From assembly GCF_023273855.1 (NCBI RefSeq), contig NZ_CP096884.1, positions 2,480,001-2,544,000 on the forward strand: DNA of 64,000 nt, given 5' to 3'. This document shows, in pieces, positions 35,338 to 54,966 of the stretch. Below the pieces are notes generated by a model. That model had not been told where the DNA came from. It searched no databases and saw only the letters and a list, made by a program, of their open reading frames with translations. This DNA is from Seonamhaeicola sp. ML3. GTDB taxonomy: Bacteria; Bacteroidota; Bacteroidia; Flavobacteriales; Flavobacteriaceae. Position 1 is the first letter of the stretch. Every line of letters starts with the position of its first letter. The position numbers and the translations under genes were made by a program.

Positions 35338-35350
35338 AAGTAGGTGTCTA

Positions 35351-35369
35351 TTTAGTTTGGGGAACTAAA
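35351..35369 (-). promoter_or_regulatory. Leader hairpin before the 1640-aa adhesin gene
   Basis: TTTAGTT (35351-35357) and AACTAAA (35363-35369) form a perfect 7-bp stem. The minus-strand loop is CCCCA. It ends 13 nt before the ATG. Confidence 0.6.
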
Positions 35370-35449
35370 TATTATTTCTCGTTATAAATCAACACTTCAG
35401 CGCTATTAAGTTTGGATGTAATAGCTTGAATTATACTAACATAGCGCTC

Positions 35450-35457
35450 CAAAGATA
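35450..35457 (-). promoter_or_regulatory. -7 box of the 1640-aa adhesin gene
   Basis: Minus-strand TATCTTTG (TAnnTTTG) implies a leader of about 105 nt. The -33 element is poor. Confidence 0.45.
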
Positions 35458-35573
35458 TGAAATAAAATGTTTTTATCGTTAAAATGAATAAAAATTCGAC
35501 GAAATACAAACACCTTAAGCCCCAATTATGTATTGGAGCCTAGATAAATTTTAATTTTTGTTTGTTTAAAGTC

Positions 35574-38500
35574 TTATTTAACCAAGACTTTTTTAGTCAT
35601 AGTTTTTCCTTCTGATATTAGATTGATAATATAGGTTCCGTCGTTAATCCTCGACGTTTCAAATGCTCTATATTTAGATGTGCTGTCTTCAATTTTAAAT
35701 GATTTAATTAACTGTCCAATAACATTATACAATTTAATAGTTTCTATTTTAACCAACTCAGGATTGATAAGTACAATACTTTCTAATTCATTATCGTAAT
35801 ACACTTGAATATTTCCTGTCTCGAATTCTTGATCAGTAAGCGTTCCGCTGTTTGAATTGAAAGTTAATTCAAATCGATCTTCGTTTGTACTCGTTGTAAC
35901 ATAGGCTAGGTAATCACCGTCTTTTAGATTATGGTAGGTGTCAAGTAGTTTATCATAGATGAAGATATCAAAGTTTTCATCTAAATTTTCTACAGAATCT
36001 ATTTTGAAAATAGCTTCTCCATCTTTATTGACTTTTATCCCTAGTGGTAATCTTTGGTTAGTTTCAAAGTTTGCAATTCCCTGAATTACGAATTTATTAT
36101 CATCAAAGATCCAGTATAAGTCCTCCTTGTTATCTTCAATGAGTGGAGCATCAAAACCTAAATCGAAGTTATTGGTAGCTCTACTATCTGAACCAACAAG
36201 TAGCTGTCTGTAGTAGCCCTCTGGAGAATGGAAAAGTAATCTTATTCTTGGGTTGCCATGGTTAGTGGTTTTGGCAGAAATTGAAGATGTTCCTTTAGTC
36301 TTGGATTTTAAGAATATAGAGCCTGTATTCGATCCGGATACATTTTCTTTAACAAAAGTACGTTGACTATTTTTAAATTCTAATGGACCGCCAACCACAG
36401 GTTGTGATAATCCTACCAGGGTTGGGTCTGCAGTTGCAGATACAAAGAAACCTTGGCCAACAGGAACATATCTTTCAGGTAGCTTAGTTCCAGAGGCCCC
36501 ACTAGCATTAATCCTTGTGTCGTTGGAAATGGCGACTGTACCACCAATTAAAGTATAACTCGCATAACCTCCTTGATAATCTCTAAGATTATGGGAGTTT
36601 ATTGCAAAGTGATCCCAAAAGTAAAGTGCACCGTTGATTATATTACCACTAGTATTTCTTCCGCCATCAGCTGTGCCAATATTGTCTAAAATAAATTCAT
36701 CGGCATCAAGGGCGGAAGGGTAAGGATTTCCAACTAGGTAATCATTTCCTGCTGTAATGGTTAAGTTTATATCCCCATTATTAGGTTGCCCATTAAAAAC
36801 ATAATTTTGATTAGCTGTAGTTGACCCTGTTCCTTTCATAGTAAATCCTTCTCCAGGAGCTAAACTTCCTGTACTCCTAACGTGCTGCCATTGCGAGTAT
36901 GTATTAGATACTCTATTGGAGTATTTCCAGATCCAATAATCTGCAATAGCTACCGGAGAAGACGTACCATTATAGCCCGTGGTTATAAAATTTAATCCCG
37001 AGAATACATCGGCTATGGTATAATTGGCATTACTTGTTGGTGCTACGGGAGACGACCAGTAATTATAAACATAAGTGTTTGGAGTGCCTTGTTGATCACG
37101 TTCTACATCACCTGTACTCGAGCTATCGAAATCACTATCGGTAGTTTGTATTAATTGCGATTCCCCTTCTAAATCAATTAGACCATCTATTTTTAAATAG
37201 TGTGTTACAGTAAGACCGTTTCCTGTATTAGAAGCGGTGCTTCCGCTTATTTCTAATGTGCTTCCAGCATCAACACTTAATCCCTGAACGACCACTTCGC
37301 GTCCTAAACTTGTGTATGTACTCACCGTTACATCGTCATGAATTTCAACAATATTCCATTCTATGGGTGTGCCACCTACTAAACACGTTGCATTAGGTAG
37401 GGTTTGTACACTATTGTTTAGCCATGTAGACGCTGTAGTCCAACTCCCTGATCCCTGAGTTTCATAAGGTAATGGTGCTGTTTGGTAATCTACTGTATCT
37501 AAATTCTTTAGGGCTCCTTGATTATTGTGCCCAGACATATCATTTGTGTTAGTATAGGTATAAATTGACATTGGATAATACCCTTCAAGATCAGACCACG
37601 GTATAGAACCAACTTCATTTTTTGTAATAGATTGTGGTATAACAGTTCCGCTTACAAAAGTGGTATCTTCCTCAACTTCTTGGTTCATTATAAATCGTAA
37701 TTGGTCTACAGATAAGGCGATATTCCATACTCTAACCTCGTCTATATTTCCAGCAAATAAGGCTGTTGGGCTATTTCCGTCTGCAGCAGCTATACAAAAT
37801 GATTGCGATGTGGCTACAGGATTAGGAACCGAAGAAGAACTGGTATCTTGTACACCATCGATGTAAAGTGATAAATTACCATTATCGAAGATTACTGCAG
37901 CTTGATGCCATTCGTTCTCTGGGATTACCACAGAGGATGTAAGTGTTGAGGCGCCTCCATTAATTGTAAACTCTAAGTATCCTGAAGCGTTGATTTTAAA
38001 ATCATAACCCTCTGTATTCGATGCATCTCTTTTCGATAAAATAGAAGCATTGGTAGTGCCAGAATCTCTTTTTATCCAAGCCGAAATTGTAAATTCTGAA
38101 GTATTAAGGTCCAGCACATCTCCCATTTCAATATAGTCTGAAGCACCATCAAAGTAAATGGAACGTTCAACGATAACTTGGGGTGCGTAACCAAAAGTGA
38201 TATACTTTGTACCATCAAAATCATAATCGGTTTCCAGATTACCACTTCCATCAGATATCATTACACGATAATCTGCTGTAGGGTCGAATACCGGAGTATC
38301 CGATATAAACATCAAGTAACTTCCTGGAGGTGAAATATTTCTAATGGCATTTTGAGGAATGCTAATTTTACATGAAGGAACATCTCCACCCGTTTCCACA
38401 AATTTCCAGATACGTTGCATACCAGTAAAAGTAACCGGTGTGCTTAGACCTGAAATTCCTGCACTCATATCTACACTTATCACAGATGCTGCTAAGTCAA

Positions 38501-41500
38501 GGTCAGCTCCGTTATTTCCCCACATCAAAAATTCTTTGTCGTTAAACGTTGTGGGATTACTTGAAATATTTTCACTATTGGTGTTGTAAATATCTGTTAG
38601 TCCAATGGTCAATATACCTTCAATAGGACCATCAACATCGGTTTCATCATTTATACTACTAGATTGTTTTTGGTTTAATTCAGAAGCATCATCACGTCCA
38701 ATACCTGCTATATCATGATTATATCCGCTTGCAGATTGATTCCAGATAACAGAACCATCAGAATCAACGTAATCTACAGTAGTGCCATTGGAGTCTGGGC
38801 TTAGTGTGATACCATATTTTATGGCTAAATACGATTGAATTCTGTTTCTTAAATCTGAGTCATTTGTATCGCTGTTAGTTGATGAATAAGTAATGATTTC
38901 TGCTATACGACCATTAAAACTACCTCCCCAATATTGACTTCTACCAATAAAATACCTTGAGTTATTTACTGCGGAAAAATCTGCCGCGTCATTTTCTACA
39001 TCATCAATTCTTGTGGCATTTAAATGGATTTCCTGTGAAGTGTTTCCTGAGTTGTGCCTAAAGTTTAAAATACCTATTTTATTAAAATTTGTGTCTGCAC
39101 TCGTATCTCCAGAACCATATCCAGGGTAGGGTGATGTTCCAGATGTACCACCTATACAGTAGGCAAGATATTCATTAGATAAACGTGCTGTATACCTACC
39201 ATATCCAAAGCCAGTAACATCCTCAGAATATGATGCCGTAGAAGCATCTGGGTCATCACCGGTAAAGGTATCCATAGGAAGCATAGTATTGGTGACTGTA
39301 ATGTCAGGTATGATTACCACGAACATATCGTTACTGTTAAAACCTCCTGTTCCCTTAAGAACATCCCTGTCCGTTAACAGGTAGGTCATGTCTCCTGGAG
39401 CTGTACTATTGTTGTTGTCAAAATGCAATACTGGATTAAAGTTGAAGTTATCCGTTGCATTATTTCGATAAGCTGGTGCTTGTTCCGGAATTGTGGTTTC
39501 TGCATGGTTTCCATTTCCATTATCAAACCACTGGTTTACAGCTGCTCCGTCCGTACCAAAGTTGGCCCCATCTACTTGGTCAGCCTTTAACCACAGATCT
39601 AAGTTTGTAGTTACACCACCAGGCGCTGTAGTAGACGCACAATATCGCGTTCCTGTAATTGTAAAATTATCTAGATATATTAAGTCGTTAGTCTCGTTAG
39701 CGCCACAACGAATTCTAAATTGCGAAGTTGAACCAGCTGAAAATGAAAAATCAGAATCTAAAATTGTAGCCGTTCTTCCGTAATAAATAATCGAATCTCC
39801 ATAAAGGAAATCACCGTCTTTACCAAATGTAGATGTATTTCCACAGTGATAAGTATTAACCGTAGTCCATGAGCTACCACTATCATTACTGTATTCAATA
39901 AAAAATTCTTCGTTGGCTTCTACATTATGTGAGGTAAAGAAAAACTTGAAGTCAATCTTATCATACCCAAGAAAATCGAACAACGGTGAGATTACTGATG
40001 CGTTATTTCCAACAGCGTCTTGGTTTCTTATCTCTAAACTATATTCGTTAGAATAGGATCTTGAAGCATAAAATATTCTTTGTGCATTTGTTCCGCCATC
40101 AGTCCAGCCATCCATACCTGTTTCAAAATCGGCAGTGTGTAATACGGTTGTTCCACATGGTGGTGGCGTGTAACCGTTTCCTTGAATATTGAATGTATAA
40201 GAGCTTTCATCTACATCATTATTTGCTATTGTGATAGTAGCTTCTCTTAATCCATCGCTACTTGGTGCAAATGTGATAATAAAGTTAGTATTGCTACTTG
40301 CAGAAATTGAGTTGTTTGGAATAGTAGTTACCGAAAAATCTGCTGCATGTGTTCCAGAAATCGCAACATAAGGAGAACTACCAGTAAGGTTTAAGGTGTT
40401 TACTAGTCCTAAATTTTCTATAACAAACGTGTTCGCATTAGTTCCAGATCCAGTTGCAGCATATCCAAAGTCTGTATTGTCTGTAGTTGAGGGCGAAACA
40501 TCTCCAGAAGCAATGGTATTACCTAAGCCTGTAATATTTATTTCTTGCGCATCGGTTGTTCCTGTTCCTTGTATATTAAATGTATATGTGCTTTCGTCTG
40601 TGTCATTATTGGCAATAGATATTGTGGCTGTTCTAAGTCCAATATCACTTGGATTGAAAGTAATTTCAAAAGTAGTTGTTAAGTTAGCACCAATAGTAGA
40701 CCCAGGTATTGCAGTTACGGTAAAATCTGAGGCATGAGTTCCAGTTATGCTAACATAGGGGGAGCTGCCCGTTAGGTTTAAAGTTCCACTTCCAATATTT
40801 CTAATCGTAAAAGTATGTGCAACAGTTCCTGAAGCTATATCGGCATCACCAAAGTCAGTATCATCAACAGCAGAAGGTGAGGTGTCTCCACTTACAATAC
40901 TTGTGGAATTCCCTTGAATGTCTATTTCTGGTGGTGGTGCAAAAGAAGATCCTTGTACAACAAACGTATACGGGTTTTCATCAGAGTCGTCATTGGCGAT
41001 AGATATCGTAGCCTGTACATTGGTGACATCAACAGTAGGAGCAAAGCGGACTACGAAAGTAAGATCGCCTCCACCGCTTACAATAGCACTAGCACTAGGT
41101 TGCGTAAGAATACTAAAGGTGGCATCACCAGTAATGGTAACATCTGGTGTACCTGTTAAGTTTAATGTTGCAGTTCCCGTATTTTGAATAGTAAAAGTAT
41201 GGTCTAAGGTCGTGTTGTTCTCAATAGAGCCAAATTCGGTATCGTCTGTTACCACGGGAGTTATATCTCCATCGGCTATATCGTTTCCATTTCCTTGAAT
41301 GTTTATTTCTGGAGCTGGCGTGTATGAAGAACCTTGGACAACAAATGTATATGGATTTTCATCTGAATCATCATTGGCGATAGATATCGTAGCCTGTACA
41401 TTGGTGACATCTACAGTAGGAGCAAAGCGAACCACGAAAGTAAGATCGCCTCCACCACTTACAATAGCACTAGCACTGGGTTGTGTAAGAATACTAAAAG

Positions 41501-42167
41501 CGGCGTTACCTGTAATGGCTACATCGGGTGTTCCTGTTAAATTTAGGGTTTCACTTCCTGTATTTTGAATGGTAAAGGTATGGTCTAAAGTTGTATTGTT
41601 TTCTATAGAACCAAATTCAGTATCGTCTGTAACCACAGGAGTTGTGTCTCCATTAGCTATATTGTTACCATTTCCTTGAATATTTATTTCTGGTGCGGAG
41701 ACACATGCTGCTCCACCATTAGCAACTTCAAAGTAAAGTGTTTGGGTTTCTTCTCCAGAACCAAAATTATATAAATCATTAGTTGAGGGCTCTGCATTTT
41801 CATCGTAAAAAAGTACTGTTACCCCTCCAGATGTAATTGTTAGCGTACCGCCGCTATTCCAACCATCACCATAACTATCGTAAACTATGGCATAGTAGCC
41901 AGTTCCTGACGGTGAGTTGTTGTCATCTGTGAGACATCCTAAATTAGATGTTGTTGAATATGAGCCAAAACTACCATCATAACCATCGTCAATAGTGGCA
42001 ATTAATGTACCATCTGGTTGATAAATTTCTACTCTATTATCTCCAGACCAAGATGGCCAGTTAACAGATACTTCAACTTCTGATGTTTGAGAAAAAGAGA
42101 TGAGAGATAGGAATGATAAAGCAATAGCGAGAGCCATTGACTTTATCGATAAAGCAATGTTTTCCAT
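35574..42167 (-). CDS. T9SS-secreted adhesin-like protein with choice-of-anchor D repeats and LamG (2197 aa)
   Basis: The largest protein in the window. Signal peptide (residues 1-26, ending SFSQ), then a Gly/Tyr/Ser-rich beta domain (DSYGDGWNSGGTLTI). Four choice-of-anchor D domains of about 127 residues each follow (starts APEINIQGNGNN, APEINIQGNGND, PPEIDIQGNSTS, AQEINITGLGNT). A jelly-roll domain contains EFFIEYSNDSGSSW. A concanavalin-like segment starts LDLWLKADQVDG near residue 840; a second LamG domain is at about 1345-1510 (YFDGASDYIEMGD, AWIKRDSG). The shared adhesin module (YNYWSSPVAP, QWQHVRSTGSLAPGEGFTMK) and a type A sorting domain (ending TMTKKVLVK) complete it. The first two anchor-D copies are nearly identical, indicating recent duplication. 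Expected location is the cell surface. Confidence 0.9.
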   Translation of the reverse strand: MENIALSIKSMALAIALSFLSLISFSQTSEVEVSVNWPSWSGDNRVEIYQPDGTLIATIDDGYDGSFGSYSTTSNLGCLTDDNNSPSGTGYYAIVYDSYGDGWNSGGTLTITSGGVTVLFYDENAEPSTNDLYNFGSGEETQTLYFEVANGGAACVSAPEINIQGNGNNIANGDTTPVVTDDTEFGSIENNTTLDHTFTIQNTGSETLNLTGTPDVAITGNAAFSILTQPSASAIVSGGGDLTFVVRFAPTVDVTNVQATISIANDDSDENPYTFVVQGSSYTPAPEINIQGNGNDIADGDITPVVTDDTEFGSIENNTTLDHTFTIQNTGTATLNLTGTPDVTITGDATFSILTQPSASAIVSGGGDLTFVVRFAPTVDVTNVQATISIANDDSDENPYTFVVQGSSFAPPPEIDIQGNSTSIVSGDTSPSAVDDTDFGDADIASGTVAHTFTIRNIGSGTLNLTGSSPYVSITGTHASDFTVTAIPGSTIGANLTTTFEITFNPSDIGLRTATISIANNDTDESTYTFNIQGTGTTDAQEINITGLGNTIASGDVSPSTTDNTDFGYAATGSGTNANTFVIENLGLVNTLNLTGSSPYVAISGTHAADFSVTTIPNNSISASSNTNFIITFAPSSDGLREATITIANNDVDESSYTFNIQGNGYTPPPCGTTVLHTADFETGMDGWTDGGTNAQRIFYASRSYSNEYSLEIRNQDAVGNNASVISPLFDFLGYDKIDFKFFFTSHNVEANEEFFIEYSNDSGSSWTTVNTYHCGNTSTFGKDGDFLYGDSIIYYGRTATILDSDFSFSAGSTSQFRIRCGANETNDLIYLDNFTITGTRYCASTTAPGGVTTNLDLWLKADQVDGANFGTDGAAVNQWFDNGNGNHAETTIPEQAPAYRNNATDNFNFNPVLHFDNNNSTAPGDMTYLLTDRDVLKGTGGFNSNDMFVVIIPDITVTNTMLPMDTFTGDDPDASTASYSEDVTGFGYGRYTARLSNEYLAYCIGGTSGTSPYPGYGSGDTSADTNFNKIGILNFRHNSGNTSQEIHLNATRIDDVENDAADFSAVNNSRYFIGRSQYWGGSFNGRIAEIITYSSTNSDTNDSDLRNRIQSYLAIKYGITLSPDSNGTTVDYVDSDGSVIWNQSASGYNHDIAGIGRDDASELNQKQSSSINDETDVDGPIEGILTIGLTDIYNTNSENISSNPTTFNDKEFLMWGNNGADLDLAASVISVDMSAGISGLSTPVTFTGMQRIWKFVETGGDVPSCKISIPQNAIRNISPPGSYLMFISDTPVFDPTADYRVMISDGSGNLETDYDFDGTKYITFGYAPQVIVERSIYFDGASDYIEMGDVLDLNTSEFTISAWIKRDSGTTNASILSKRDASNTEGYDFKINASGYLEFTINGGASTLTSSVVIPENEWHQAAVIFDNGNLSLYIDGVQDTSSSSVPNPVATSQSFCIAAADGNSPTALFAGNIDEVRVWNIALSVDQLRFIMNQEVEEDTTFVSGTVIPQSITKNEVGSIPWSDLEGYYPMSIYTYTNTNDMSGHNNQGALKNLDTVDYQTAPLPYETQGSGSWTTASTWLNNSVQTLPNATCLVGGTPIEWNIVEIHDDVTVSTYTSLGREVVVQGLSVDAGSTLEISGSTASNTGNGLTVTHYLKIDGLIDLEGESQLIQTTDSDFDSSSTGDVERDQQGTPNTYVYNYWSSPVAPTSNANYTIADVFSGLNFITTGYNGTSSPVAIADYWIWKYSNRVSNTYSQWQHVRSTGSLAPGEGFTMKGTGSTTANQNYVFNGQPNNGDINLTITAGNDYLVGNPYPSALDADEFILDNIGTADGGRNTSGNIINGALYFWDHFAINSHNLRDYQGGYASYTLIGGTVAISNDTRINASGASGTKLPERYVPVGQGFFVSATADPTLVGLSQPVVGGPLEFKNSQRTFVKENVSGSNTGSIFLKSKTKGTSSISAKTTNHGNPRIRLLFHSPEGYYRQLLVGSDSRATNNFDLGFDAPLIEDNKEDLYWIFDDNKFVIQGIANFETNQRLPLGIKVNKDGEAIFKIDSVENLDENFDIFIYDKLLDTYHNLKDGDYLAYVTTSTNEDRFELTFNSNSGTLTDQEFETGNIQVYYDNELESIVLINPELVKIETIKLYNVIGQLIKSFKIEDSTSKYRAFETSRINDGTYIINLISEGKTMTKKVLVK

Positions 42168-42185
42168 AGTGTGAGAGACTAAGTT

Positions 42186-42200
42186 TGATTTGAGGAATCA
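42186..42200 (-). promoter_or_regulatory. Leader hairpin before the 2197-aa adhesin gene
   Basis: TGATT (42186-42190) and AATCA (42196-42200) pair around a minus-strand CCTCA loop, 18 nt before the ATG. A GTCTCTCACACT block precedes the ATG and is shared with the M14 gene. Confidence 0.5.
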
Positions 42201-42219
42201 TATTTTTTAAATAGCAATG

Positions 42220-42250
42220 CAAATATAAGTATAAACCCTTAAAAAGCAAA
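42220..42250 (-). promoter_or_regulatory. Promoter of the 2197-aa adhesin gene
   Basis: Minus-strand TTTG (42247-42250), a 19-bp spacer and TATATTTG (42220-42227) form a perfect Bacteroidota promoter. The transcript should start near 42213. Confidence 0.8.
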
Positions 42251-42354
42251 AAAAATCGACGAAATACAATTTTTGTTAAGATTTAGTCTAGAATTTTGAT
42301 TAATAAGTACGATTTACACTTTATAAGGTTTGTCTTTTGAAACACATTTTTTAA

Positions 42355-42392
42355 TAAAAAAAAGGGTAAACTAACTAGTTTACCCTTTTTCG
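42355..42392 (-). terminator. Terminator of the M14 carboxypeptidase gene
   Basis: AAAAAGGGTAAAC and GTTTACCCTTTTT pair perfectly around TAACTA, just after the gene's stop codon. The M14 gene and the 2197-aa gene are therefore separate transcripts. Confidence 0.9.
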
Positions 42393-42406
42393 CCTATTCT
42401 AATATT

Positions 42407-45400
42407 TTAATTTGACTTTTTTATTAATTTTTTAGTTGATACGTAACCCGATTTGGTGTCAGTGATACTGATAAAGTAACTTCCCATGTCTAAGTATGGT
42501 ATATTTAGAGAGACACTTAATTTTCCGTTAACAGGTGTATAGGTTTTATTGAGTATGAGGCGTCCTCTTATATCTGTTAGTATCAGTCTAAAAGTACTTA
42601 CAGAATTTGAGGGAAGCTCTATGTTTACTTCATCAATAAAAGGATTAGGACTGATCTTTAAATTTTTAATTTGAAAATCGGTATCAGTATTTAAAGTACC
42701 GTCCAAAGTTAACGGATTACAATCATCATCTATACCATTACCTAAGATTTCAGAGTTTCCAGGATTAATATCATAATTTCTATCGTCACAGTCATTAGAA
42801 TTACTTACGAATCCGATTGGTGGTGAACAGGCAATTATCGTTGTCTGAAAATCTCCAAAACCATCGTTATCAGCATCAGCATAGAAAGTTTGAGGCGTTT
42901 CAGTTGTTGAAACCTCCCAACTACACGTCCCAGTGTTGAATATCGCGGTTTCCCAACAAGCAGTTGAAGGTTCAGTAGGTTGCGTTCCGGTTACGTCCCA
43001 GCTACACGTAGCGGTGTTAAAGGTCGCGGTTTCCCAACAGACTGTTGTAGGTTCAGCAGGTTGTGTCCCGGTTACGTCCCAACTACAGGTTCCGGTGTTA
43101 AAGGTCGCGGTTTCCCAACAGGCCGTTGTAGGCTCGGCAGGTTGCGTTCCGGTTACGTCCCAGCTACAGGTTCCAGTGTTGAATGTTGCGGTTTCCCAAC
43201 ATGCCGTAGTAGGTTCGGCAGGTTGTGTTCCCGTAACGTCCCAACTACACGTACCAGTGTTAAAGGTTGCGGTTTCCCAACAAGCTGTAGTAGGTTCGGC
43301 AGGTTGCGTTCCGGTAACGTTCCAGCTACACGTCCCGGTGTTGAATGTCGCTGTTTCCCAACAGGCCGTTGTAGGTTCATCAGGTTGCGTTCCGGTTACG
43401 TTCCAGCTACAGGTTCCAGTGTTGAATGTTGCGGTTTCCCAACAGGCCGTTGTAGGTTCAGTGGGTTGCGTTCCGGTTACGTCCCAACTACAAGTTCCAG
43501 TGTTAAAGGTTGCGGTTTCCCAACATTCGGTTGTAGGTTCAGTGGGTTGCGTTCCGGTTACGTCCCAGCTACACGTAGCGGTGTTAAAGGTCGCTATTTC
43601 CCAACATGCTGTAGTAGGTTCAGCAGGTTGAGTTCCTGTAACCTCCCAACTACACGTTCCAGTGTTAAAGGTCGCAGTTTCCCAACAGGCCGTAGTAGGT
43701 TCGGCAGGTTGTGTTCCCGTAACGTCCCAGCTACACGTTCCAGTGTTAAAGGTCGCGGTTTCCCAACATGCTGTAGTAGGTTCGGCAGGTTGCGTTCCGG
43801 TTACGTCCCAGCTACACGTCCCGGTGTTGAATGTTGCGGTTTCCCAACATGCTGTAGTTGGCTCGGCAGGTTGAGTTCCTGTAACCTCCCAACTACACGT
43901 TCCAGTGTTGAATGTTGCGGTTTCCCAACAGGCCGTAGTAGGTTCGGCAGGTTGAGTTCCCGTAACGTCCCAACTACACGTACCAGTGTTAAAGGTTGCG
44001 GTTTCCCAACAAGCTGTAGTAGGTTCAGCGGGTTGCGTTCCGGTTACGTCCCAGCTACACGTCCCAGTGTTAAAGGTTGCGGTTTCCCAACAGGCCGTAG
44101 TAGGTTCAGTAGGTTGTGTCCCGGTTACGTCCCAACTACACGTCCCGGTGTTGAATGTTGCGGTTTCCCAACATGCCGTTGTAGGTTCAGCAGGTTGTGT
44201 CCCGGTTACGTCCCAGCTACACGTCCCCGTGTTGAATGTTGCGGTTTCCCAACAGGCCGTAGTAGGCTCGGCAGGTTGCGTTCCGGTTACGTCCCAGCTA
44301 CAGGTTCCAGTGTTAAAGGTTGCGGTTTCCCAACAGGCCGTTGTAGGTTCAGTGGGTTGCGTTCCGGTTACGTCCCAGCTACACGTAGCGGTGTTAAAGG
44401 TCGCTATTTCCCAACATGCTGTAGTAGGTTCAGCAGGTTGAGTTCCTGTAACCTCCCAACTACACGTTCCAGTGTTAAAGGTCGCGGTTTCCCAACAGGC
44501 CGTTGTAGGTTCGGCAGGTTGCGTTCCGGTTACGTCCCAACTACACGTTCCAGTATTAAAGGTCGCTGTTTCCCAACATGCCGTAGTAGGTTCATCAGGT
44601 GGGGTACAAGCACTATTTATGATTATAGTATAGTCCTCTACCTCACCATCATAATTGGTGGCACAAGGACCCGTAGGATCAGTATTATATCTTGTAGCAA
44701 TTCTTAATCTTGTTTCTCCAGTAGGGAAATTGGCTCCACTACTAAAGGTAATGGTTGGTGTAATACTTGTTTGGGTATTATCTCCAGTATTGGCAAATCC
44801 TAAATCGAATTCCTCACCGTCATCATCAAAATCACCATCAATATTTAAATCTATCCAAGCAAAAGCATGACCAGTACCTCCATCTCTATCTACATTTACA
44901 TATAACACATGAGATGAGCCCTGTTGAACGGTTGTTGACATTGCTGTAAAATCCTGGTAACCACTATTTTCTCTGTTGTTGGTATGTGAATTAGATAGCG
45001 TATTAAATGTTACCTGTGTAATGCCAGTATCGTAAGTGCCACTTCCATTGGAGTTGCAATATGAAATTGCAGTTGTTGTGAAATTTGTTGATCCGGTATA
45101 ATTAGATTTTGAACTGGAACAAGCACTTTTAATTTGAACTTCGTAGTTTGTGGAAGGGCTTAAGGATGAAAAGTTATATGAGGTTGCTAAAACATCATTC
45201 ACTTCAATCCAGGTCCCAGAACTCGTTTCTTTATATCTAAGGTCGTAGGTTGCAGAGGGAATGTTGTCCCAAGTCGCTGTAGCCGAAGTTGGAGCAACAT
45301 TTGACACTGAGAGATTTGTGGGAATAGAAATTGCACACGGTATTTGTACTTTAATGATTTTAAAATCATCTATAAAGAATCCTTCTCCACTCGCAGAGTA

Positions 45401-47761
45401 ACTTTCGAATCTATTATCACTGTCTGATCGAAACCTAAATCTAAATTGTGCATTGGTTGCACCATTTAGAAAGCTGTTATTAGAAGGGTCAATGACAACC
45501 TCTTCCATAACCCAGTTATCAAATCTGTCGCCATCATATACGCGGCCAGAACTGTTATTCGATTGGAACGAGTGACTTGTTCCGCTCTTATTGCCATGAC
45601 TACCATTGGAGCTATTTGTTGCATTCGGTTTATTATATTTTCCACATAATGATTGCCAGTTGCTTCCATCTGTCGACCCTAAAATTTCTACAAAATCGAA
45701 GTTTCTTTCCAAATCCCATTTCGTATAAAATTGTACGAGTACTTCGCTAGCACCTGATAAATCATACGTGTTTGTAGTAGTTAAAGTACTTGTGGAGTTA
45801 TTACCATAAGAGGAAATAGTATTATCACCAATTTTAATTCCTCTTGTACCAGAATAAGCAGCACCACTAGTGTTTGCCGCAGACCAAGTACCAGATGTGG
45901 TCCAGTTGGTTAATAAATCTGAATCAGGATTATCCGTAAAAGTAGTAGTAGGCTGATAGTATTTTTCAAAGTTTACATTATAAAATGTGTTTGTACCATC
46001 AGACAGTTGTACGTTATACTCAATTTTATCATTAGTTGCTATACCAGCGTCAAGTATTATTTGTGTAGTTACATTTCTCTGTTCCAATATGGTCATTCCA
46101 GTTTGCACAGGAATATTAGCAATAGATGTAATATTAGAAGATACAGGTGTAACTGTAAGGGTAAAATTACTTGTTGTTTGCCCGAGGCGCTCTATACCGA
46201 AAGTTAAATTTGAGGTCAACGAACTGATATCGGATTGTGTTAAGTCGTGTAATTTCGCATATTTACCAGCATAGTACGTAGAAGTTAAGAATAAACGCAT
46301 AGCACGTTTTGAAATGGGTACTATATCGGTTACTGGAGGCCAAAAACCAGAATCACCATGTTCTGGAGTAGTGGCTAAGATATTTTGTCCAGATCCAGTT
46401 GAGTTGTTACCGTCCGGATTTCCACCTACCATCCAGTCGTCTGCAATACCATTGGCGGCAGAAAAAATAGTGGCACCGGATATGTATCTATTATATCTAG
46501 TCATGTCTTCGTGCCATTTATGCATTTCATCTTCCCTACCAGAAGTATTAGAAGGGATTCCACCATAAGGATGTGGAATTGCATTACCCGTAGAATGGTT
46601 CATTAAACAGGTTTTAAAATTTCTAGCAAGAATGAAATCTCTTAAGATTTGTGTTTCGGGTTCTGAAAAAGCCGAAGGTCCTCTATAGGAATCATTAGAG
46701 GGTGTTCCAGAAGATCCAGAACCAGCCGATCCCCAGAAATAGTCGAAATTTCTATTTAAATCTACACCTCTAGTAGATGTTGTATTTGAAGTACTACCAG
46801 TATTAGGTCTACAGTTTTTTCTTTGCATACCGCCACCAGACGAGGAAAGATGTTCGTTCCACCTCAATCCATCAGGGTTTACAACAGGGATGAAATAGAG
46901 CTCGTTATTATCAATTAAATTTTTTATTGCTGGATTTGTATCATAGTTTTCTAACAAATACCACATAAAATAGATGTTACTCATTAAACTTCCTACTTCC
47001 CTAGAATGTATCATGGACGTGAATAAAGATTGAGGGCGTGTACCTTCTGGAACAGTCGATTCGTTTCCAGTAATTCTAACATAGTATATGGTTTGAGGAT
47101 TCCATCTAGTTGTTCCTTGCCCTTCATAAGTCAAACCATTATGAGTAATTGTTGAAGCAGGATTCCCCCAAGTGGTTTGTTGTGTAGGGGAGGCATCTGT
47201 TTTGGCAGAGATTAGGTTTGGGTATAATGACCTCATTTGGTCTAATTCAGCTTCTACTTCACTAATGGTTAAACAGCCTCCCATGCTTCCTAAGTTGAAG
47301 TTTGAAGGAGTCGCCCAATCTATTTCATCACACCCAACATATTCCAAGAAATTATCAAGTGTAGTACTTGCTATAGATTTGGCAGTAGTAGATGTTTTTG
47401 TTTTCTTGGAAGAAAGGTTTAACCTGTTATTCGCTTTCTCGGAGTTTAGATTTACAAGTGCGCTATTGTAGGTTTGGTTTATTCTATCCCTGTAGAATTT
47501 TGATAAGTCATTAATTTCGATACTGTAAACAATTCCTATATTGTCTAGTTTATCTAATTCAGATTCAGGAAGTTCTAATACTAGTTCATCATGGTCGTGA
47601 TCATGATTTACACCACAACTTAGGTCTATGCCTAAATTTTTTATGGCTTGTTCTAAACTTTCCGTGGGGTGGTTAATAGATATTCTTTTGAATAAATCCT
47701 GAGAGGTTGATAGTTGTGTAATAAACAATAGTATTACACCTACCAAAGTAGTTTTTTTCAT
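42407..47761 (-). CDS. T9SS-secreted M14 zinc carboxypeptidase with 21 tandem 27-residue repeats (1784 aa)
   Basis: Secreted peptidase or adhesin-peptidase hybrid. Signal peptide ends STSQ at residue 20-21. A propeptide-like region carries a His/Asp cluster (NHDHDHDE, residues 52-59). The M14 domain has zinc ligands H252 and E255 (IHSREVG), the substrate-binding NRN with R337, third ligand H389 (MNHSTG) and a probable catalytic E467 (TTPEHGD). A MAM/jelly-roll segment, a fibronectin type III domain (near IPTNLSVSNVAPTSATATWD) and a GEVED domain (AWIDLNIDGDFDDDGEE) follow. Then come 21 near-identical Cys-Trp repeats, a MopE-like metal-binding motif (DADNDGFGD, NDCDDRNYDINPG) and a type A sorting domain. 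Active-site completeness argues for real protease activity; substrate unknown. Confidence 0.92.
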   Translation of the reverse strand: MKKTTLVGVILLFITQLSTSQDLFKRISINHPTESLEQAIKNLGIDLSCGVNHDHDHDELVLELPESELDKLDNIGIVYSIEINDLSKFYRDRINQTYNSALVNLNSEKANNRLNLSSKKTKTSTTAKSIASTTLDNFLEYVGCDEIDWATPSNFNLGSMGGCLTISEVEAELDQMRSLYPNLISAKTDASPTQQTTWGNPASTITHNGLTYEGQGTTRWNPQTIYYVRITGNESTVPEGTRPQSLFTSMIHSREVGSLMSNIYFMWYLLENYDTNPAIKNLIDNNELYFIPVVNPDGLRWNEHLSSSGGGMQRKNCRPNTGSTSNTTSTRGVDLNRNFDYFWGSAGSGSSGTPSNDSYRGPSAFSEPETQILRDFILARNFKTCLMNHSTGNAIPHPYGGIPSNTSGREDEMHKWHEDMTRYNRYISGATIFSAANGIADDWMVGGNPDGNNSTGSGQNILATTPEHGDSGFWPPVTDIVPISKRAMRLFLTSTYYAGKYAKLHDLTQSDISSLTSNLTFGIERLGQTTSNFTLTVTPVSSNITSIANIPVQTGMTILEQRNVTTQIILDAGIATNDKIEYNVQLSDGTNTFYNVNFEKYYQPTTTFTDNPDSDLLTNWTTSGTWSAANTSGAAYSGTRGIKIGDNTISSYGNNSTSTLTTTNTYDLSGASEVLVQFYTKWDLERNFDFVEILGSTDGSNWQSLCGKYNKPNATNSSNGSHGNKSGTSHSFQSNNSSGRVYDGDRFDNWVMEEVVIDPSNNSFLNGATNAQFRFRFRSDSDNRFESYSASGEGFFIDDFKIIKVQIPCAISIPTNLSVSNVAPTSATATWDNIPSATYDLRYKETSSGTWIEVNDVLATSYNFSSLSPSTNYEVQIKSACSSSKSNYTGSTNFTTTAISYCNSNGSGTYDTGITQVTFNTLSNSHTNNRENSGYQDFTAMSTTVQQGSSHVLYVNVDRDGGTGHAFAWIDLNIDGDFDDDGEEFDLGFANTGDNTQTSITPTITFSSGANFPTGETRLRIATRYNTDPTGPCATNYDGEVEDYTIIINSACTPPDEPTTACWETATFNTGTCSWDVTGTQPAEPTTACWETATFNTGTCSWEVTGTQPAEPTTACWEIATFNTATCSWDVTGTQPTEPTTACWETATFNTGTCSWDVTGTQPAEPTTACWETATFNTGTCSWDVTGTQPAEPTTACWETATFNTGTCSWDVTGTQPTEPTTACWETATFNTGTCSWDVTGTQPAEPTTACWETATFNTGTCSWDVTGTQPAEPTTACWETATFNTGTCSWEVTGTQPAEPTTACWETATFNTGTCSWDVTGTQPAEPTTACWETATFNTGTCSWDVTGTQPAEPTTACWETATFNTGTCSWEVTGTQPAEPTTACWEIATFNTATCSWDVTGTQPTEPTTECWETATFNTGTCSWDVTGTQPTEPTTACWETATFNTGTCSWNVTGTQPDEPTTACWETATFNTGTCSWNVTGTQPAEPTTACWETATFNTGTCSWDVTGTQPAEPTTACWETATFNTGTCSWDVTGTQPAEPTTACWETATFNTGTCSWDVTGTQPAEPTTVCWETATFNTATCSWDVTGTQPTEPSTACWETAIFNTGTCSWEVSTTETPQTFYADADNDGFGDFQTTIIACSPPIGFVSNSNDCDDRNYDINPGNSEILGNGIDDDCNPLTLDGTLNTDTDFQIKNLKISPNPFIDEVNIELPSNSVSTFRLILTDIRGRLILNKTYTPVNGKLSVSLNIPYLDMGSYFISITDTKSGYVSTKKLIKKSN
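42897..44605 (-). repeat. Minisatellite: 21 units of 81 bp inside the M14 gene
   Basis: Each unit encodes 27 residues of the form P(A/T/D)EPTTACWETATFN, then TGTCSW(D/E/N)VTGTQ, with two cysteines. About 1.7 kb divided by 81 bp gives 21 copies. Variants (EIATFNTAT, TTEC, SWEV, SWNV) mark individual units. A block around 43531-43675 recurs at 44341-44485, exactly 810 bp (10 units) away, including synonymous sites. Confidence 0.95.
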
Positions 47762-47783
47762 GGTGTGAGAGACATTAATTTAA

Positions 47784-47794
47784 TAGCGAGGCTA
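47784..47794 (-). promoter_or_regulatory. Weak leader hairpin before the M14 gene
   Basis: TAGC and GCTA pair around a minus-strand CTC loop, 22 nt before the ATG. It is the weakest of the four adhesin leaders. GTCTCTCACACC directly before the ATG matches the 2197-aa gene. Confidence 0.3.
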
Positions 47795-47865
47795 ATGTAG
47801 GGTATAAATCTCTAAAAAATCCATGAAAAGCATATAAAATCGATGAAATACTATTTTTTTTAACA

Positions 47866-47899
47866 AAAAAAGAAGCTAGTACGTGTTTAGCTTCTTTTT
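47866..47899 (-). terminator. Terminator of the 993-aa adhesin gene
   Basis: GAAGCTA and TAGCTTC pair around a short loop, with T residues following on the minus strand, 27 bp after the stop. Confidence 0.85.
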
Positions 47900-47925
47900 A
47901 AAATTCAAAATTTATAGCAATAGGT

Positions 47926-50907
47926 TTATTTAATAAGCACCTTTTTGGTTATTATTTCATCTTTTGTGGTAAGTTGTAATATATAGTTTCCGGTATTGAG
48001 GTGTCGTGTTTTTAGTTCTAAAAACGACATATTATTGTTTAAGCTGAATTCATAAATAGTTTGCCCCAATATATTTACTAATCTTATATTGTCAATATAC
48101 TTCAGTCCAGGGTTCTCTATTATTACACTTGTTTTATTATTGGAATAATAGGTCTCTACTTTGTTTTCGGTATTGTCTTCACTGTTGTTATCTATATCCT
48201 CAGCGATAGTTTCATCATCTCTTGAATTATCTTCAGTGGTATCGTTATTGTCCTCTTCGTTTGTTGTATCGTTAGAGTCTTCGGGGTCATTATTACCTTC
48301 TTCTTCAGTGTTGTTATCATTATCAGATGTTTCGTCTGTGTTGTTCTCGGCTTCATCATTTTCAGTATTATCGTCAACAACTTCATCATCGCTATCTTCT
48401 GTTGTATCATTTTCTGAAGTGTCTTGGTTGTCACTTTCAGTTTCTTCATTTTCGAAGGGTTGAGAACTTATTTTAAAAGTTATTTCAAAACGATTTAAAT
48501 ATTCTCCTGGTGAAAGGTTTACGGTATAAAGCCCTTCTCTGAGACTATGATATTCTTTTAATTCTTTATCATGAATCAGTACATCAAGATTGTTGGGTAT
48601 GTTAGATAAATTATCAATTTTAAAAACTCCGTTACCCTGTTTTGAAATTTTTAGGCCTAAAGGTAAAATTTGGTTAGTGCTAAAATTGTTCACGGCTTGA
48701 ATTATCAATTTCTCGGAGTCCATTACCCAGAACGCATCCTCGTTATTGTCTTCGATAAGCACGCCGTCATAACCTATATCGAAGTTATTCGATGCTTTTT
48801 CATCTACACCTACCAACAGTTGTCTGTAATAACCATTAGGAGAATCGAAAATAAGCTTAATCTTTTCTCTATTATCTTCAATAGTACTGCTCAGACTTCG
48901 TTGATTGTTCTGAAAAAGAATTGCACCTCCAGAAACTTCTTGAGGTATTTTGGGGCTTAAAGTATTTTCATCGGTATCTTTTTTTAGCTTAGACGATACA
49001 AAAAAACCTTGGCCAATAGGGATAAATCTTCCCGGTGTTTTTAAGTTTGGCGACCCTTCAAAATTTATTCTGGTGTTTTTATTTATTGCTTGTGTACTAC
49101 CCATTAATGTGTACATACCATAACCTCCCTGGTATTCTCCAGGTAAGTGTGTGTTTAACATAAAATGGTCGAAAAAATATAGTGCACCATTAATGATGTT
49201 GCCATTGGTGTTGTTGCCACCTTCTGTAGTACTGAGGTTATCTTTTAAAAATGTATTGGCATCGATAACCGAAGGATAGGGATTGCCAATTAAATAGTCG
49301 TTATCTTTTGCAATGCTTAGGTTGATATCTCCATTATTGGGCTGTCCAGAAAACGTATAATCTTGATAAGGGTTAGATGTACCGGGGCCTTTCATTGTAA
49401 AACCTTCGCCAGGTTGAATGGGTCCTGTACTTCTAATATGCTGCCATTGCGATTGATTGTTTTTAGTATCATGAGCATATTTCCAAATCCAATAATCTGC
49501 ATTTTGTATAGGAGATGCTGTACCATTATATCCAGAAGTAATAAAACCTACGTTGGTTATAACGCTACTCGCTGTATGGCTGGAATTACTGGTAACAGAG
49601 ACAGGGGAAGACCAATAATTGTAGGTAAAAGTGTTACTGGTACCTTGTAAATTTATTTCCATGGCACTGTTACTAGTGCTTTCAAAATCGCTCTGAGCAC
49701 CTTGGACTAACTCCGATTTTCCCTTCAAGTTAATGATTCCATCAAGTTTTAAATAATGGGAAACATTTATTTTGGTATTGTTTGCACCTTCTGTGGTGTC
49801 TCCAATGTTTAAACGCCCTTTATTTATTATAAGGCCTAACACACTTTTATTGGTTTTTAGGTTAATATTGTTATTTATTTCCACAATATTAAAACCTATA
49901 GCATCCGTGCTTTCTGTATTCCATGACTTTCCCGGAAGACACTGTATATTACCGTTAAGCCAGGTATTGGGATTGTTCCAATCTCCATTTTCAATTGTCT
50001 TGTAGGGTAGTGGCGCCGTTTGGTTCTCTAAATGGTCAATATTTACCAAAGAAGCGTTATGACCATTATTAGATTCGTCTTTTACTTTTCCAAGAACCAA
50101 TGTGTTCATGGAGTAATAACTAATTAAATGTTCCCAAGATATGGAGGCTATTTCGTTTTTTGTTGTTTGAAAAGGCAATATTTTACCATTAACGACAGAC
50201 GAGCATGCCTCTATTTCTTGATTCATGATATATCGTATTTGCTCCGCTTTAAGGTCTAAGTTCCAAATTCTAACTTCATCGATACTTCCGTTAAAACAGT
50301 TTTTATTTTTTAAGTCATGGGATGCCCCAATCAGAAAATGGGCATTTGTTTCTACTAGTATTGGTTTTTGTATTTGGTCCTGTGCTTTTAGTTCACCGTT
50401 AATAAATAAGCTTAATGCGTTAGTATTTCTGTTAAAGGTTACAGCTACATGATGCCAAACGTTTTCAGAAATTTCAGAAGGTGCGATTAAGCTACTATAA
50501 CAGTCATCTCCTTTATTTCTCCATACAAAGTTCAGTTTGTTACTGTTACTTATTCGCAAGGCATAACCATAGTCGCCGTTATTTTTAGAAATTATATCTA
50601 ACTCATTATTATTTGTGTTTCTTTTAATCCAAGCGCTAATGGTATAACTGGTATTTATTAAACCGTTTACATTTCCAGCATCTAAATATTGGTTCTCACC
50701 GTTAAAGGATACCGCAAATTTTGTTTCTGTAATTGTAGCAGCTGATTCAAAAGTTTTATGTTTTGTGTCCTCTGAGCAGAAGCTTTTCTTGGAATTATTA
50801 ATCCATGTGTCATCAGAGTCTAATGCGTTTAGACCTAATAGGTTTGCATAAGTGAATATGAAAAGACACAGTAAGTGATACCTAGTAAGGGAACGTACCT
50901 TGTTCAT
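47926..50907 (-). CDS. T9SS-secreted LamG adhesin-like protein with acidic linker (993 aa)
   Basis: The first gene of the adhesin cluster in transcription order. Its N-terminal hydrophobic segment (LLCLFIFTYANLLGL) should act as the signal peptide. A LamG domain covers about residues 65-225 (SFNGENQYLDAGNVNG, YTISAWIKRNT, GSIDEVRIWNLDL). The shared adhesin module follows (FTYNYWSSPVSV, DYWIWKYAHDTKN, QWQHIRSTGPIQPGEGFTMK, DYLIGNPYPSVIDANTFLKDN). Then comes a roughly 105-residue linker of almost only D, E, N, T and S (coded at about 48150-48460), and a type A sorting domain ending IITKKVLIK. The linker probably extends the adhesive part from the surface or binds cations. Promoter and leader hairpin are clear. 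Confidence 0.9.
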   Translation of the reverse strand: MNKVRSLTRYHLLCLFIFTYANLLGLNALDSDDTWINNSKKSFCSEDTKHKTFESAATITETKFAVSFNGENQYLDAGNVNGLINTSYTISAWIKRNTNNNELDIISKNNGDYGYALRISNSNKLNFVWRNKGDDCYSSLIAPSEISENVWHHVAVTFNRNTNALSLFINGELKAQDQIQKPILVETNAHFLIGASHDLKNKNCFNGSIDEVRIWNLDLKAEQIRYIMNQEIEACSSVVNGKILPFQTTKNEIASISWEHLISYYSMNTLVLGKVKDESNNGHNASLVNIDHLENQTAPLPYKTIENGDWNNPNTWLNGNIQCLPGKSWNTESTDAIGFNIVEINNNINLKTNKSVLGLIINKGRLNIGDTTEGANNTKINVSHYLKLDGIINLKGKSELVQGAQSDFESTSNSAMEINLQGTSNTFTYNYWSSPVSVTSNSSHTASSVITNVGFITSGYNGTASPIQNADYWIWKYAHDTKNNQSQWQHIRSTGPIQPGEGFTMKGPGTSNPYQDYTFSGQPNNGDINLSIAKDNDYLIGNPYPSVIDANTFLKDNLSTTEGGNNTNGNIINGALYFFDHFMLNTHLPGEYQGGYGMYTLMGSTQAINKNTRINFEGSPNLKTPGRFIPIGQGFFVSSKLKKDTDENTLSPKIPQEVSGGAILFQNNQRSLSSTIEDNREKIKLIFDSPNGYYRQLLVGVDEKASNNFDIGYDGVLIEDNNEDAFWVMDSEKLIIQAVNNFSTNQILPLGLKISKQGNGVFKIDNLSNIPNNLDVLIHDKELKEYHSLREGLYTVNLSPGEYLNRFEITFKISSQPFENEETESDNQDTSENDTTEDSDDEVVDDNTENDEAENNTDETSDNDNNTEEEGNNDPEDSNDTTNEEDNNDTTEDNSRDDETIAEDIDNNSEDNTENKVETYYSNNKTSVIIENPGLKYIDNIRLVNILGQTIYEFSLNNNMSFLELKTRHLNTGNYILQLTTKDEIITKKVLIK

Positions 50908-50919
50908 AAGTGGTTAATT

Positions 50920-50935
50920 TTAGTTTGGGGACTAA
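50920..50935 (-). promoter_or_regulatory. Leader hairpin before the 993-aa adhesin gene
   Basis: TTAGT (50920-50924) and ACTAA (50931-50935) form a 5-bp stem with a minus-strand CCCCAA loop, ending 12 nt before the ATG. It should lie at or near the 5' end of the mRNA. The sequence from the loop to the ATG closely matches the 1640-aa gene. Confidence 0.6.
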
Positions 50936-50942
50936 TTACAAA

Positions 50943-50974
50943 CAAAAGTAGGTATATATTCTATGAAATGCAAA
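50943..50974 (-). promoter_or_regulatory. Promoter of the 993-aa adhesin gene
   Basis: Minus-strand TTTG (50971-50974), 20-bp spacer and TACTTTTG (50943-50950) fit the Bacteroidota consensus. Confidence 0.75.
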
Positions 50975-51383
50975 AAATATCGTTTAAATGTGTATTTATT
51001 GTGTTTAAGTAAGAAATAATTTCATTTTATTTTTAAAAATATTGAATGAAAAATTTAAGATTTACAAGGTTTCTTTTCGTTTGAAACAACCCTAAAGTAT
51101 GCGATGTTGAAGGTGGGATGATTTAATATATTCAACAGTTAAAGGATATGAAAACTTTGAAATAGGGAAGTTTTAATACTTAGTTTTTAATGAAAAGTTA
51201 TAAGTGAATTAGGGCAGATGGATTGGAGAATAGATTGTTATTTAAGTTGGGTTACAATTCAATTTATTCGAGAACAAAACAACTGTTAAACAGATTTTGA
51301 TATGAGAAGAAATGTGTAGCGCCCTGTTTGTTGTGTAAATCTATTTTAGAAGACTTGTTGATTTAATGCTTTGTTTCCTGTTG
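50975..51383. other. About 400-bp gene-free region
   Basis: A/T-rich DNA without a credible gene. It contains the element GATTTACAAGGTTTCTTTTC (51059-51078), which weakly resembles the sequence at 42310-42340 upstream of the 2197-aa gene. Nothing else is recognised. Confidence 0.6.
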
Positions 51384-51986
51384 TTATTTATAATTAAGTG
51401 ATTCCATATATCGGATTGGAAATATTTGTGTTATTTCTCGCCATTTCATTAGATCCTCCGGTTCGTCTGATTTTAGTAATTCCGTTAGACTTTTATTAAA
51501 TTTCAGTAGTGAGAATTCATTACGAACTTCATAGTAAGCTAAATAAAATTTGTTCCGAATGTTTTGATACTTTTCATAGCTTAATTCTCTGTTATATTTC
51601 GCGAGGATAGTAATATATTTTTGAGTAAGGACCTTTCCAGAATACTGAAAACTCTTCTCGGTCGTCATTGGCATTTTTTCGTCCGCTGTGTTTGGTATTA
51701 TATATTTTTTGAATTCAGATAGTATTAGGCTATCTGGAACAATATTGTTCTCAATTGTCGTTTCGCCATTTTTGTCAACATCAATTAAAACGATATTCCT
51801 CTGTTTAATTATTAATTGGTCGGATTTATCTCTAATATTTCTCATATAATCGTCAAATCCGTATTCTAAATCAATTACCTTATAGTCAGCTTCTAGTTCT
51901 AATAAAGTGTCCAATTCTTTTTTACAAGATGTTGAAGCTAGCATAATAATAGTAATAAGTAATATATTTAGCGAAGTTTTTGTCAT
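51384..51986 (-). CDS. Orphan ExbD/TolR-like periplasmic lipoprotein
   Basis: A 200-residue predicted lipoprotein (hydrophobic N terminus then LASTSC, acylated Cys21). The mature C-terminal half resembles the periplasmic domain of flavobacterial ExbD proteins: KYITILAKYNRELSYEKYQN, then IRNKFYLAYYEVRNEFSLLKF, and the end ITQIFPIRYMES, comparable to the ExbD ending P-x-R-I-S-E. It lacks the single transmembrane helix with the proton-carrying Asp of true ExbD, and no exbB or tonB adjoins. It may modulate a proton-driven complex from the membrane surface; this is inference. The IS3 element sits 2 bp upstream of its ATG, so its native promoter and leader are gone. Low GC suggests foreign origin. 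Confidence 0.6.
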   Translation of the reverse strand: MTKTSLNILLITIIMLASTSCKKELDTLLELEADYKVIDLEYGFDDYMRNIRDKSDQLIIKQRNIVLIDVDKNGETTIENNIVPDSLILSEFKKYIIPNTADEKMPMTTEKSFQYSGKVLTQKYITILAKYNRELSYEKYQNIRNKFYLAYYEVRNEFSLLKFNKSLTELLKSDEPEDLMKWREITQIFPIRYMESLNYK

Positions 51987-51988
51987 AA
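51986..51988. repeat. Target-site duplication of the IS element (left copy)
   Basis: TAA at 51986-51988 matches TAA at 53292-53294. A 3-bp duplication is normal for IS3-family elements. Confidence 0.6.
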
Positions 51989-52028
51989 TGTCACGTCCTG
52001 AAATATGGCTACAGGTTAATAATTGATT

Positions 52029-52907
52029 TTACGCTGCATTTGTATATACCATTTCAGGTGTTTTAAAATCTAAAGATAAATGTAATCTTATAGAGTTGTA
52101 TAAGTTGATAGCATTTTTTGCTGCACGCTTAGCGTGTTTCAGGCTGTCAAAGGTCTGGTCGAGATAGAACTCGTCTTTAAGGATGCCGTTTACACGTTCT
52201 GCAAGTGCGTTTTCGTAGCAATGATTGTCTTCGGTCATACTGATTTTGATGTTTTTATTTCTTAGAATGTTAGTGTAAAGGTTACTGCAATATTGGATTC
52301 CACGGTCAGAGTGGTGTACTTGAGGCGTACGCTTACCAGACTGTTTCAGGGCTTTTTGAAGAGCCCTTACACAGCCTGCCAGCTCAAGGCTGTCACTAAG
52401 GTCATATCCTACTATCTTACGGCTGTACATATCTGTAATGAGGGCAAGGTAGGAGAAGCCATTGATAGTTCTGATGTAGGTTATATCGCTTACCCAAACT
52501 TGGTTTGGTTCCTTTATTTCCAAATCCTTGATGATGTTCTTGTACTTGTAGAACCTGTGGAATGAGTTTGTGGTTTTATGATGTGCTTTCTTTCTGTGAA
52601 TCAGCATATTGTGTTTTCTTAAGATGTTAAACAAGGTGTCTCTACCGACATTTAAGCCAGCTTGCTTAAAGTTGTTATCTAGAGACTTAATAAGCTTTCT
52701 GGTGCCTTCTCTAGGCAGGGATTTACGTCTCTGCTTGACTATCTGAATGGTTTTCTGTTCAATCTGTAATCGCTTGTCTGCTCTACGTTTATACTTGTAG
52801 TATGCATCGCGTTTAAGACCGAAGAAGCTGCAAACAGTAGCTAAAGAAGCAAATCCCCTAGACTTTTCCCTGGCCTTTATCAGGGCTTGATATTTAGCTT
52901 TTTTTTT
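52029..52907 (-). CDS. IS3 transposase OrfB (DDE integrase part), expressed by -1 frameshift
   Basis: Catalytic part of the IS3 transposase. The frame is open from the A9 run at 52899-52907 to the stop at 52029, although the first conventional start is an internal TTG at 52634. It reads RAKKKAKYQALIKAREKS, then RGFASLATVCSFFGLKRDAY, QRRKSLPREGTRKLIKSL and the rve domain. The DDE triad is in WVSDITYI (D), HHSDRGIQYC (D) and NALAERVNGILKDEF (E). The full OrfAB fusion therefore spans 52029-53251. It strictly needs the frameshift since no start lies before the HTH-like upstream region. Confidence 0.93.
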   Translation of the reverse strand, partial: KKKAKYQALIKAREKSRGFASLATVCSFFGLKRDAYYKYKRRADKRLQIEQKTIQIVKQRRKSLPREGTRKLIKSLDNNFKQAGLNVGRDTLFNILRKHNMLIHRKKAHHKTTNSFHRFYKYKNIIKDLEIKEPNQVWVSDITYIRTINGFSYLALITDMYSRKIVGYDLSDSLELAGCVRALQKALKQSGKRTPQVHHSDRGIQYCSNLYTNILRNKNIKISMTEDNHCYENALAERVNGILKDEFYLDQTFDSLKHAKRAAKNAINLYNSIRLHLSLDFKTPEMVYTNAA

Positions 52908-53251: not shown

Positions 53252-53302
53252 AATTGTTTAAGATTATGTAGCCTTTATTCAGGACGGGTCATAATTAAAT
53301 AC

Positions 53303-53321
53303 AACGGTTAATGTAACCGTT
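53303..53321. repeat. Perfect 8-bp inverted repeat beside the IS element
   Basis: AACGGTTA (53303-53310) and TAACCGTT (53314-53321) with a 3-nt loop. Before the IS arrived it lay just upstream of the ExbD-like gene; it could be a weak terminator of the esterase gene or an operator. Confidence 0.4.
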
Positions 53322-53380
53322 TGTTAATTGTTAAAAGTTAATATATGTCTGTTTAGTACTGCGGTTAAAGTTTCTTACCG

Positions 53381-54259: not shown

Positions 54260-54373
54260 ATCGTGATTGAATGATGCTTAATAGTTTTGTATGAGTATTA
54301 ATAAATATTTTTAGGTTAATGATGCTCGTAATTGTGAGTGGATTTGAATGTAGTCGAATCCCCGTAATTGCTG

Positions 54374-54942: not shown

Positions 54943-54966
54943 TGTTGCTCTTAAATTTTGGGTAAC

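Follow-up and report, generated by a model that had tools for sequence, protein, structure and literature searches.

In the genome of Seonamhaeicola sp. ML3, a gene for a predicted secreted peptidase carries a long run of short, cysteine-containing repeats, which raises the question of what such an array does for an enzyme and how its units change over time. We analysed a window of 64,000 nucleotides around the gene and compared the gene with its relatives. The gene and its parts, in window positions, are as follows.

42407..47761, minus strand: whole gene, encoding a predicted secreted M14 zinc carboxypeptidase of 1784 aa with a repeat array and a T9SS type A sorting domain (ORF, Pfam/NCBIfam)
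46301..47095, minus strand: Peptidase_M14 domain, residues 223-487 (Pfam PF00246, E 9.7e-42)
45569..45814, minus strand: MAM-like domain, residues 650-731, a weak match under the curated cut-off (Pfam PF20773, E 6e-4)
45104..45325, minus strand: Fibronectin type III domain, residues 813-886 (Pfam PF00041, E 1.4e-8)
44624..44860, minus strand: GEVED domain, residues 968-1046 (Pfam PF20009, E 2.5e-15)
42893..44593, minus strand: array of 21 contiguous 27-residue units, consensus EPTTACWETATFNTGTCSWDVTGTQPA, final unit degenerate (unit count, TRF, structure prediction)
42716..42793, minus strand: MopE-type putative metal-binding motif, residues 1657-1682 (Pfam PF11617, E 2.7e-6)
42416..42655, minus strand: T9SS type A C-terminal sorting domain, residues 1703-1782 (PF18962 and TIGR04183)

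The domains run in the order signal peptide, M14, MAM-like, fn3, GEVED, array, MopE-type metal motif and T9SS sorting domain, where the N-terminus (MKKTTLVGVILLFITQLSTSQ) looks, by eye, like a signal peptide. Membership of the M14 zinc carboxypeptidases is indicated by the PF00246 match and by the motifs HSRE (residue 252), NHS (388) and TPEHG (465), with NRN at 336. We take HSRE, NHS and TPEHG to be the zinc-binding HxxE, the second His and the catalytic Glu of M14 enzymes, and the motifs are consistent with a predicted intact active site. The C-terminus scored above the cut-offs of both type A sorting models (PF18962, 32.1 bits, cut-off 27; TIGR04183, 26.9 bits, cut-off 23), as expected of a T9SS substrate. 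In Porphyromonas gingivalis, export removes the sorting domain and the new C-terminus is joined to A-LPS (PMC5053529). By analogy, the sorting domain of the M14 protein is probably cleaved during export, which would leave the array near the mature C-terminus and, if the same processing holds here, next to the membrane anchor. No Rfam match was found within 35000-55000. The window also contains a 381-bp repeat (40908-41693; 2.1 copies, 86%) in the neighbouring 2197-aa choice-of-anchor-D/LamG T9SS protein, and an integrase core (rve) ORF with an upstream frame (52029-53260), which together resemble an IS3-type insertion element, directly upstream of the T9SS gene cluster.

Each unit is predicted to be a self-standing two-Cys beta-hairpin. 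AlphaFold2 gave every unit one hairpin, with pLDDT 95.8 when five units were modelled together and 91.5 for one on its own; the strands fall at positions 12-16 and 21-25 of the model and recur 27 residues on. The pTM of the five-unit model was 0.60, which leaves the angle between units uncertain and a rod shape unsettled. The Trp, Cys and Phe positions are conserved in all units and across the proteins that carry them, and the conserved cysteines, two per unit and 42 across the array, suggest putative disulphides. The unit fell into no known repeat or domain family by the searches made: the best Pfam hit was DUF6237 (17.2 bits, under the cut-off of 25), NCBIfam had no match over the array, no PDB sequence matched the unit at E<=10, and a literature search did not find the unit sequence in print. 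Foldseek and VIA-align returned no significant structural match, which says nothing for a new fold. The top-ranked solved structure was the Entamoeba histolytica Gal/GalNAc lectin heavy chain (9gjf_H, 9gjb_H; E 0.19-0.63, TM 0.23-0.24, rmsd 19-28 Å); this is not significant and we claim no relationship.

The first-pass annotation had described 21 near-identical units of 27 residues with two Cys each, at coordinates that proved correct to within a dozen bases. The number, length and cysteines of the units hold (TRF: period 81, 20.8 copies), each unit is exactly 27 codons and the reading frame is unbroken through all 21. Near-identity holds for the protein, with a mean of 94% between units, but not for the DNA, where the mean is 87%; units 1-20 comprise 8 distinct protein sequences and 19 distinct DNA sequences. 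Across the array, dS is 0.73 and dN is 0.027 (dN/dS about 0.04), and 19 of the 23 informative sites are third codon positions. High silent and low replacement divergence is also seen in most of the relatives' arrays. In unit trees the nearest neighbour of every unit sits in its own array (21/21), and this clustering by genome indicates that units are homogenised within lineages; the Seonamhaeicola sp. ML3 genome has no second such array.

Linkage between sites decays within ~6 nt, and four-gamete violations occur in 52 of 105 site pairs, part of which recurrent mutation at two-state sites may explain. The exact runs that neighbouring units have in common are short, at 11-29 nt, or 38 nt for the longest one, which spans a unit edge. 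The array is a patchwork from a small pool of silent variants, as is expected from short exchanges within the array combined with selection against amino-acid change. Local duplication of neighbours was considered and rejected, since adjacent units show no excess likeness over random pairs (lag 1, P 0.39); identity at lag 2 was low (P 0.008), which is not significant after 15 tests. Selection for silent divergence as a block to recombination is not needed, because codon heterozygosity (0.35) is below that of a free codon draw (0.57).

Two further properties of the array sequence were noted. Its GC content is about 53% compared with ~37% around it, and GC at fourfold sites is 0.43 compared with 0.25 elsewhere in the gene; a GC rise is also present in several relatives' arrays and absent from others, the units are not independent, and we claim no cause. 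A 575-aa open frame on the plus strand (42980-44707) runs antisense to the array. It was rejected as a gene, since stops mostly break the antisense frames of the relatives' arrays, and it is probably a by-product of a stop-free repeat.

Two pairs of exact tracts stand out from the patchwork.

44340..44485, minus strand: 146-nt exact tract, first copy, units 2-4 (exact-repeat comparison)
43530..43675, minus strand: 146-nt exact tract, second copy, units 12-14, 810 bp off (exact-repeat comparison, null tests)
43956..44026, minus strand: 71-nt exact tract, first copy, unit 8 (exact-repeat comparison)
43227..43297, minus strand: 71-nt exact tract, second copy, unit 17, 9 units off (exact-repeat comparison)

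The 146-nt tract is the longest exact internal repeat of the array and exceeds chance: in 300 trials with codons shuffled within columns no run exceeded 86 nt, and with unit order shuffled 146 nt was reached in 0.7% of trials. This bears out the earlier observation of a segment of ~145 nt occurring twice, exactly 810 bp apart and with silent sites included. The 10-unit internal duplication that had been read from it does not survive, as only ~1.8 units were copied. Among unit pairs at lag 10, units 2/12 and 3/13 are 97.5% and 100% identical, whereas the other eight pairs average 88.0%, compared with 87.1% for all pairs, so that a ten-unit block duplication would have needed overwriting everywhere else. 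One conversion event over about 146-165 nt is a simpler account and would not alter copy number. As an explanation of the 146-nt tract, short-tract gene conversion is at least as good as unequal exchange; the 71-nt tract shared by units 8 and 17 and the ending common to units 3, 13 and 20 fit the same picture. Of the unequal exchange inferred earlier, the exchange itself stands, on the 146-nt tract, the four-gamete violations and the decay of linkage; exchange that changes copy number is not supported.

We compared about 40 M14 relatives over the slot that follows the last globular domain and precedes the sorting domain. In some, the slot is filled by an array of 16-36 hairpin units (L050, 36; L078, 23; L083, 19; L088, 20; L089, 16; L109, 16), where the 36 of Mariniflexile maritimum (L050) includes one divergent last unit and copy numbers from draft genomes are minimum values, as draft contigs sometimes end within arrays. 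Elsewhere the slot holds 50-51-aa MopE-type, 73-aa or 81-93-aa Ig/fn3/HYR-like repeats, and nine classified relatives have no array. The closest relative, 81% identical over the M14 region, carries Ig/HYR-type repeats of 81 aa (G245), and its paralogue has MopE-type repeats. Across the M14 tree, a minimum of 6 changes is needed for the hairpin state and of 20 for all states combined; these counts are approximate because states were assigned from repeat period and motif. The replacement can be seen between twin paralogues. In one genome (G002; locus L080, G002:C5:299000-318000), a pair of M14 genes with a single 2125-aa gene between them match at 99.96% over 2291 bp of peptidase DNA, beyond which one carries fn3 repeats and the other MopE-type repeats; in another (G265; L141, G265:C12:113000-132000), 2363 bp are common at 98.9%, followed by a long fn3 stalk in one copy and a short end in the other. 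A T9SS-type gene of ~2.1 kaa is flanked by the tandem M14 paralogues at both loci and resembles the window's neighbour at 35574-42167. The array had been suggested to act as a stalk between protease and sorting domain, and the comparison supports this, with the relatives' slot varying in length and repeat type; the plainest reading would be one enzyme on exchangeable stalks.

Some relatives fill the same slot with repeats that are nearly perfect as DNA. A 3292-aa M14 homologue (L104, G065) has ~39 copies of a 51-aa MopE-type repeat at 99-100% DNA identity, and a 3728-aa homologue (L115, G181) has ~31 copies of a 73-aa repeat at about 100%; both are good candidates for strain-level length variation. 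A 28-aa hairpin array of at least 60 units at 100% DNA identity was found at L085/L092 (G160:C1:270000-288000), where a long open frame holds out-of-frame readings of its repeat, owing either to real frameshifts or to an assembly problem.

We consider it probable that the array serves as a stalk or tether, interchangeable with others and maintained by short-tract conversion and purifying selection, and not as a fast minisatellite. The 21 hairpins in a row would hold the M14 carboxypeptidase away from the T9SS-processed C-terminal end, which, by analogy with Porphyromonas, is probably anchored to the cell surface. Occasional short-tract gene conversion, with purifying selection on every unit, would shape the units, and units would be gained or lost on the time scale of species. 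Spacing is a role that we infer for the array. Against a stalk stand the nine relatives that lack an array, so that a long stalk is not essential, and the pTM of 0.60, which leaves a rod-like shape uncertain; against a pure spacer, dN/dS about 0.04 might mean that the unit binds something.

The last point leads to a second reading, in which each hairpin binds a polymer or surface for substrate targeting or adhesion and many copies provide avidity. It would account for the Trp, Cys and Phe conserved in all units and carriers, for the low dN/dS, and for the presence of the unit on various T9SS proteins with PKD, SprB and LTD/TIG partners. However, so small a fold needs conserved Cys, Trp and Phe anyway, and unrelated repeats fill the slot in close relatives and twin paralogues, which favours a spacer; we regard ligand binding as quite improbable. 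A rapidly varying stalk of the Periscope type, in which unequal exchange alters unit number between strains and tunes the reach of the peptidase, seems unlikely too. In its favour, the units are 94% identical as protein, an exact 146-nt tract recurs 810 bp away, unit number ranges from 16 to 36 between species, the same slot holds perfect DNA arrays in L104 and L115, and unit number varies from 35 to 88 between isolates in a flavobacterial gliding-motility protein (PMC8400371). What weighs against it is the DNA of the array itself, with 87% identity between units, exact sharing of at most 38 nt between adjacent units and no block duplication seen, whereas the Periscope survey ties length variation to the highest repeat identity (PMC8201768). 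That the assembler created or collapsed units, or the repeated tract, is very improbable. Breaks in arrays of this sort do occur in draft genomes, and the perfect units of G160 include out-of-frame stretches, but this array lies on one contig of a 99.91% complete assembly, 19 of 20 units have distinct DNA sequences, the longest exact repeat is 146 nt and the frame is intact over 21 units; collapse or expansion is unlikely on these sequence features.

In the Periscope survey, length varies most where repeats are most identical (PMC8201768). That level of DNA identity was found in the relatives' arrays at L104, L115 and G160 but is missing from the window's array (mean 87%, 19 of 20 units distinct, dS 0.73), and we expect its copy number to change slowly, an expectation based on one strain. 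Our comparisons use one genome per species, and the range of 16-36 units is one between species.

The unit itself matched in 47 of the 397 Flavobacteriaceae genomes searched, representing 39 of the 237 genera, with more examples in records labelled Chitinophaga, Saprospiraceae and Spirosoma; in a phylum-wide sample, 15 of 395 matched, mostly weakly. Among the carriers are M14 proteins, PKD and SprB proteins that end in type A tails, CHU_C (type B) proteins and proteins with LTD/TIG partners. Within single arrays at L081 (G006:C2:134000-141000) and L056, CWETATFN..TCSWDV-like and CWDDYQFN..SCSWQN-like sub-types alternate or mix. A bolder proposal, which we offer tentatively and hold to be doubtful as a whole, is that the 27/28-residue two-Cys hairpin may be an uncatalogued cassette, used across Bacteroidota as a swappable stalk on T9SS surface proteins. 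In flavobacteria, gene conversion would keep the catalytic halves of twin M14 genes identical while their stalks are swapped, giving the same enzyme a different reach, and silent divergence would lock length here, with perfect-DNA arrays in the slot elsewhere being variable in length. The unit has no family model, yet occurs in about one-eighth of the sampled Flavobacteriaceae genomes, and repeat stalks on Bacteroidota surface enzymes are common and little studied. The repeat, unmodelled so far, is ordinary in kind and most likely an exchangeable stalk; the interesting part is the swapping. The M14 family amounts to a natural experiment, with one enzyme, many stalks, and DNA-diverged and DNA-perfect arrays at the same position, through which the effect of stalk length and DNA identity on surface enzymes becomes testable.

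Three known systems share parts of this organisation. Periscope Proteins (SasG, Rib and Sgo_0707; PMC8201768, PMC9704523) likewise carry a tandem run of similar folded units, with a functional part on its N-terminal side and a signal for surface attachment at the C-terminal end, and the units are proposed to set reach. They differ in repeat length (the survey sought repeats of over 50 residues, compared with 27 aa here), in DNA identity (near 100% compared with 87%) and in their ends, combining an adhesin with sortase attachment where the gene studied here combines an enzyme with T9SS. SprB and other repeat surface proteins of Flavobacteriia are also long, repeat-rich and T9SS-exported; a Pfam scan found no SprB repeats in the M14 protein, and one relative (L086) combines the hairpin unit with SprB repeats. 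Polyubiquitin genes resemble the array in pattern of evolution, with head-to-tail units that are near-identical as protein, diverged at silent sites and closer within than between species, a state attributed to purifying selection with slow concerted evolution (PMC10457151). Ubiquitin is unrelated in sequence and function, and its units are cut apart, whereas those of the array stay joined.
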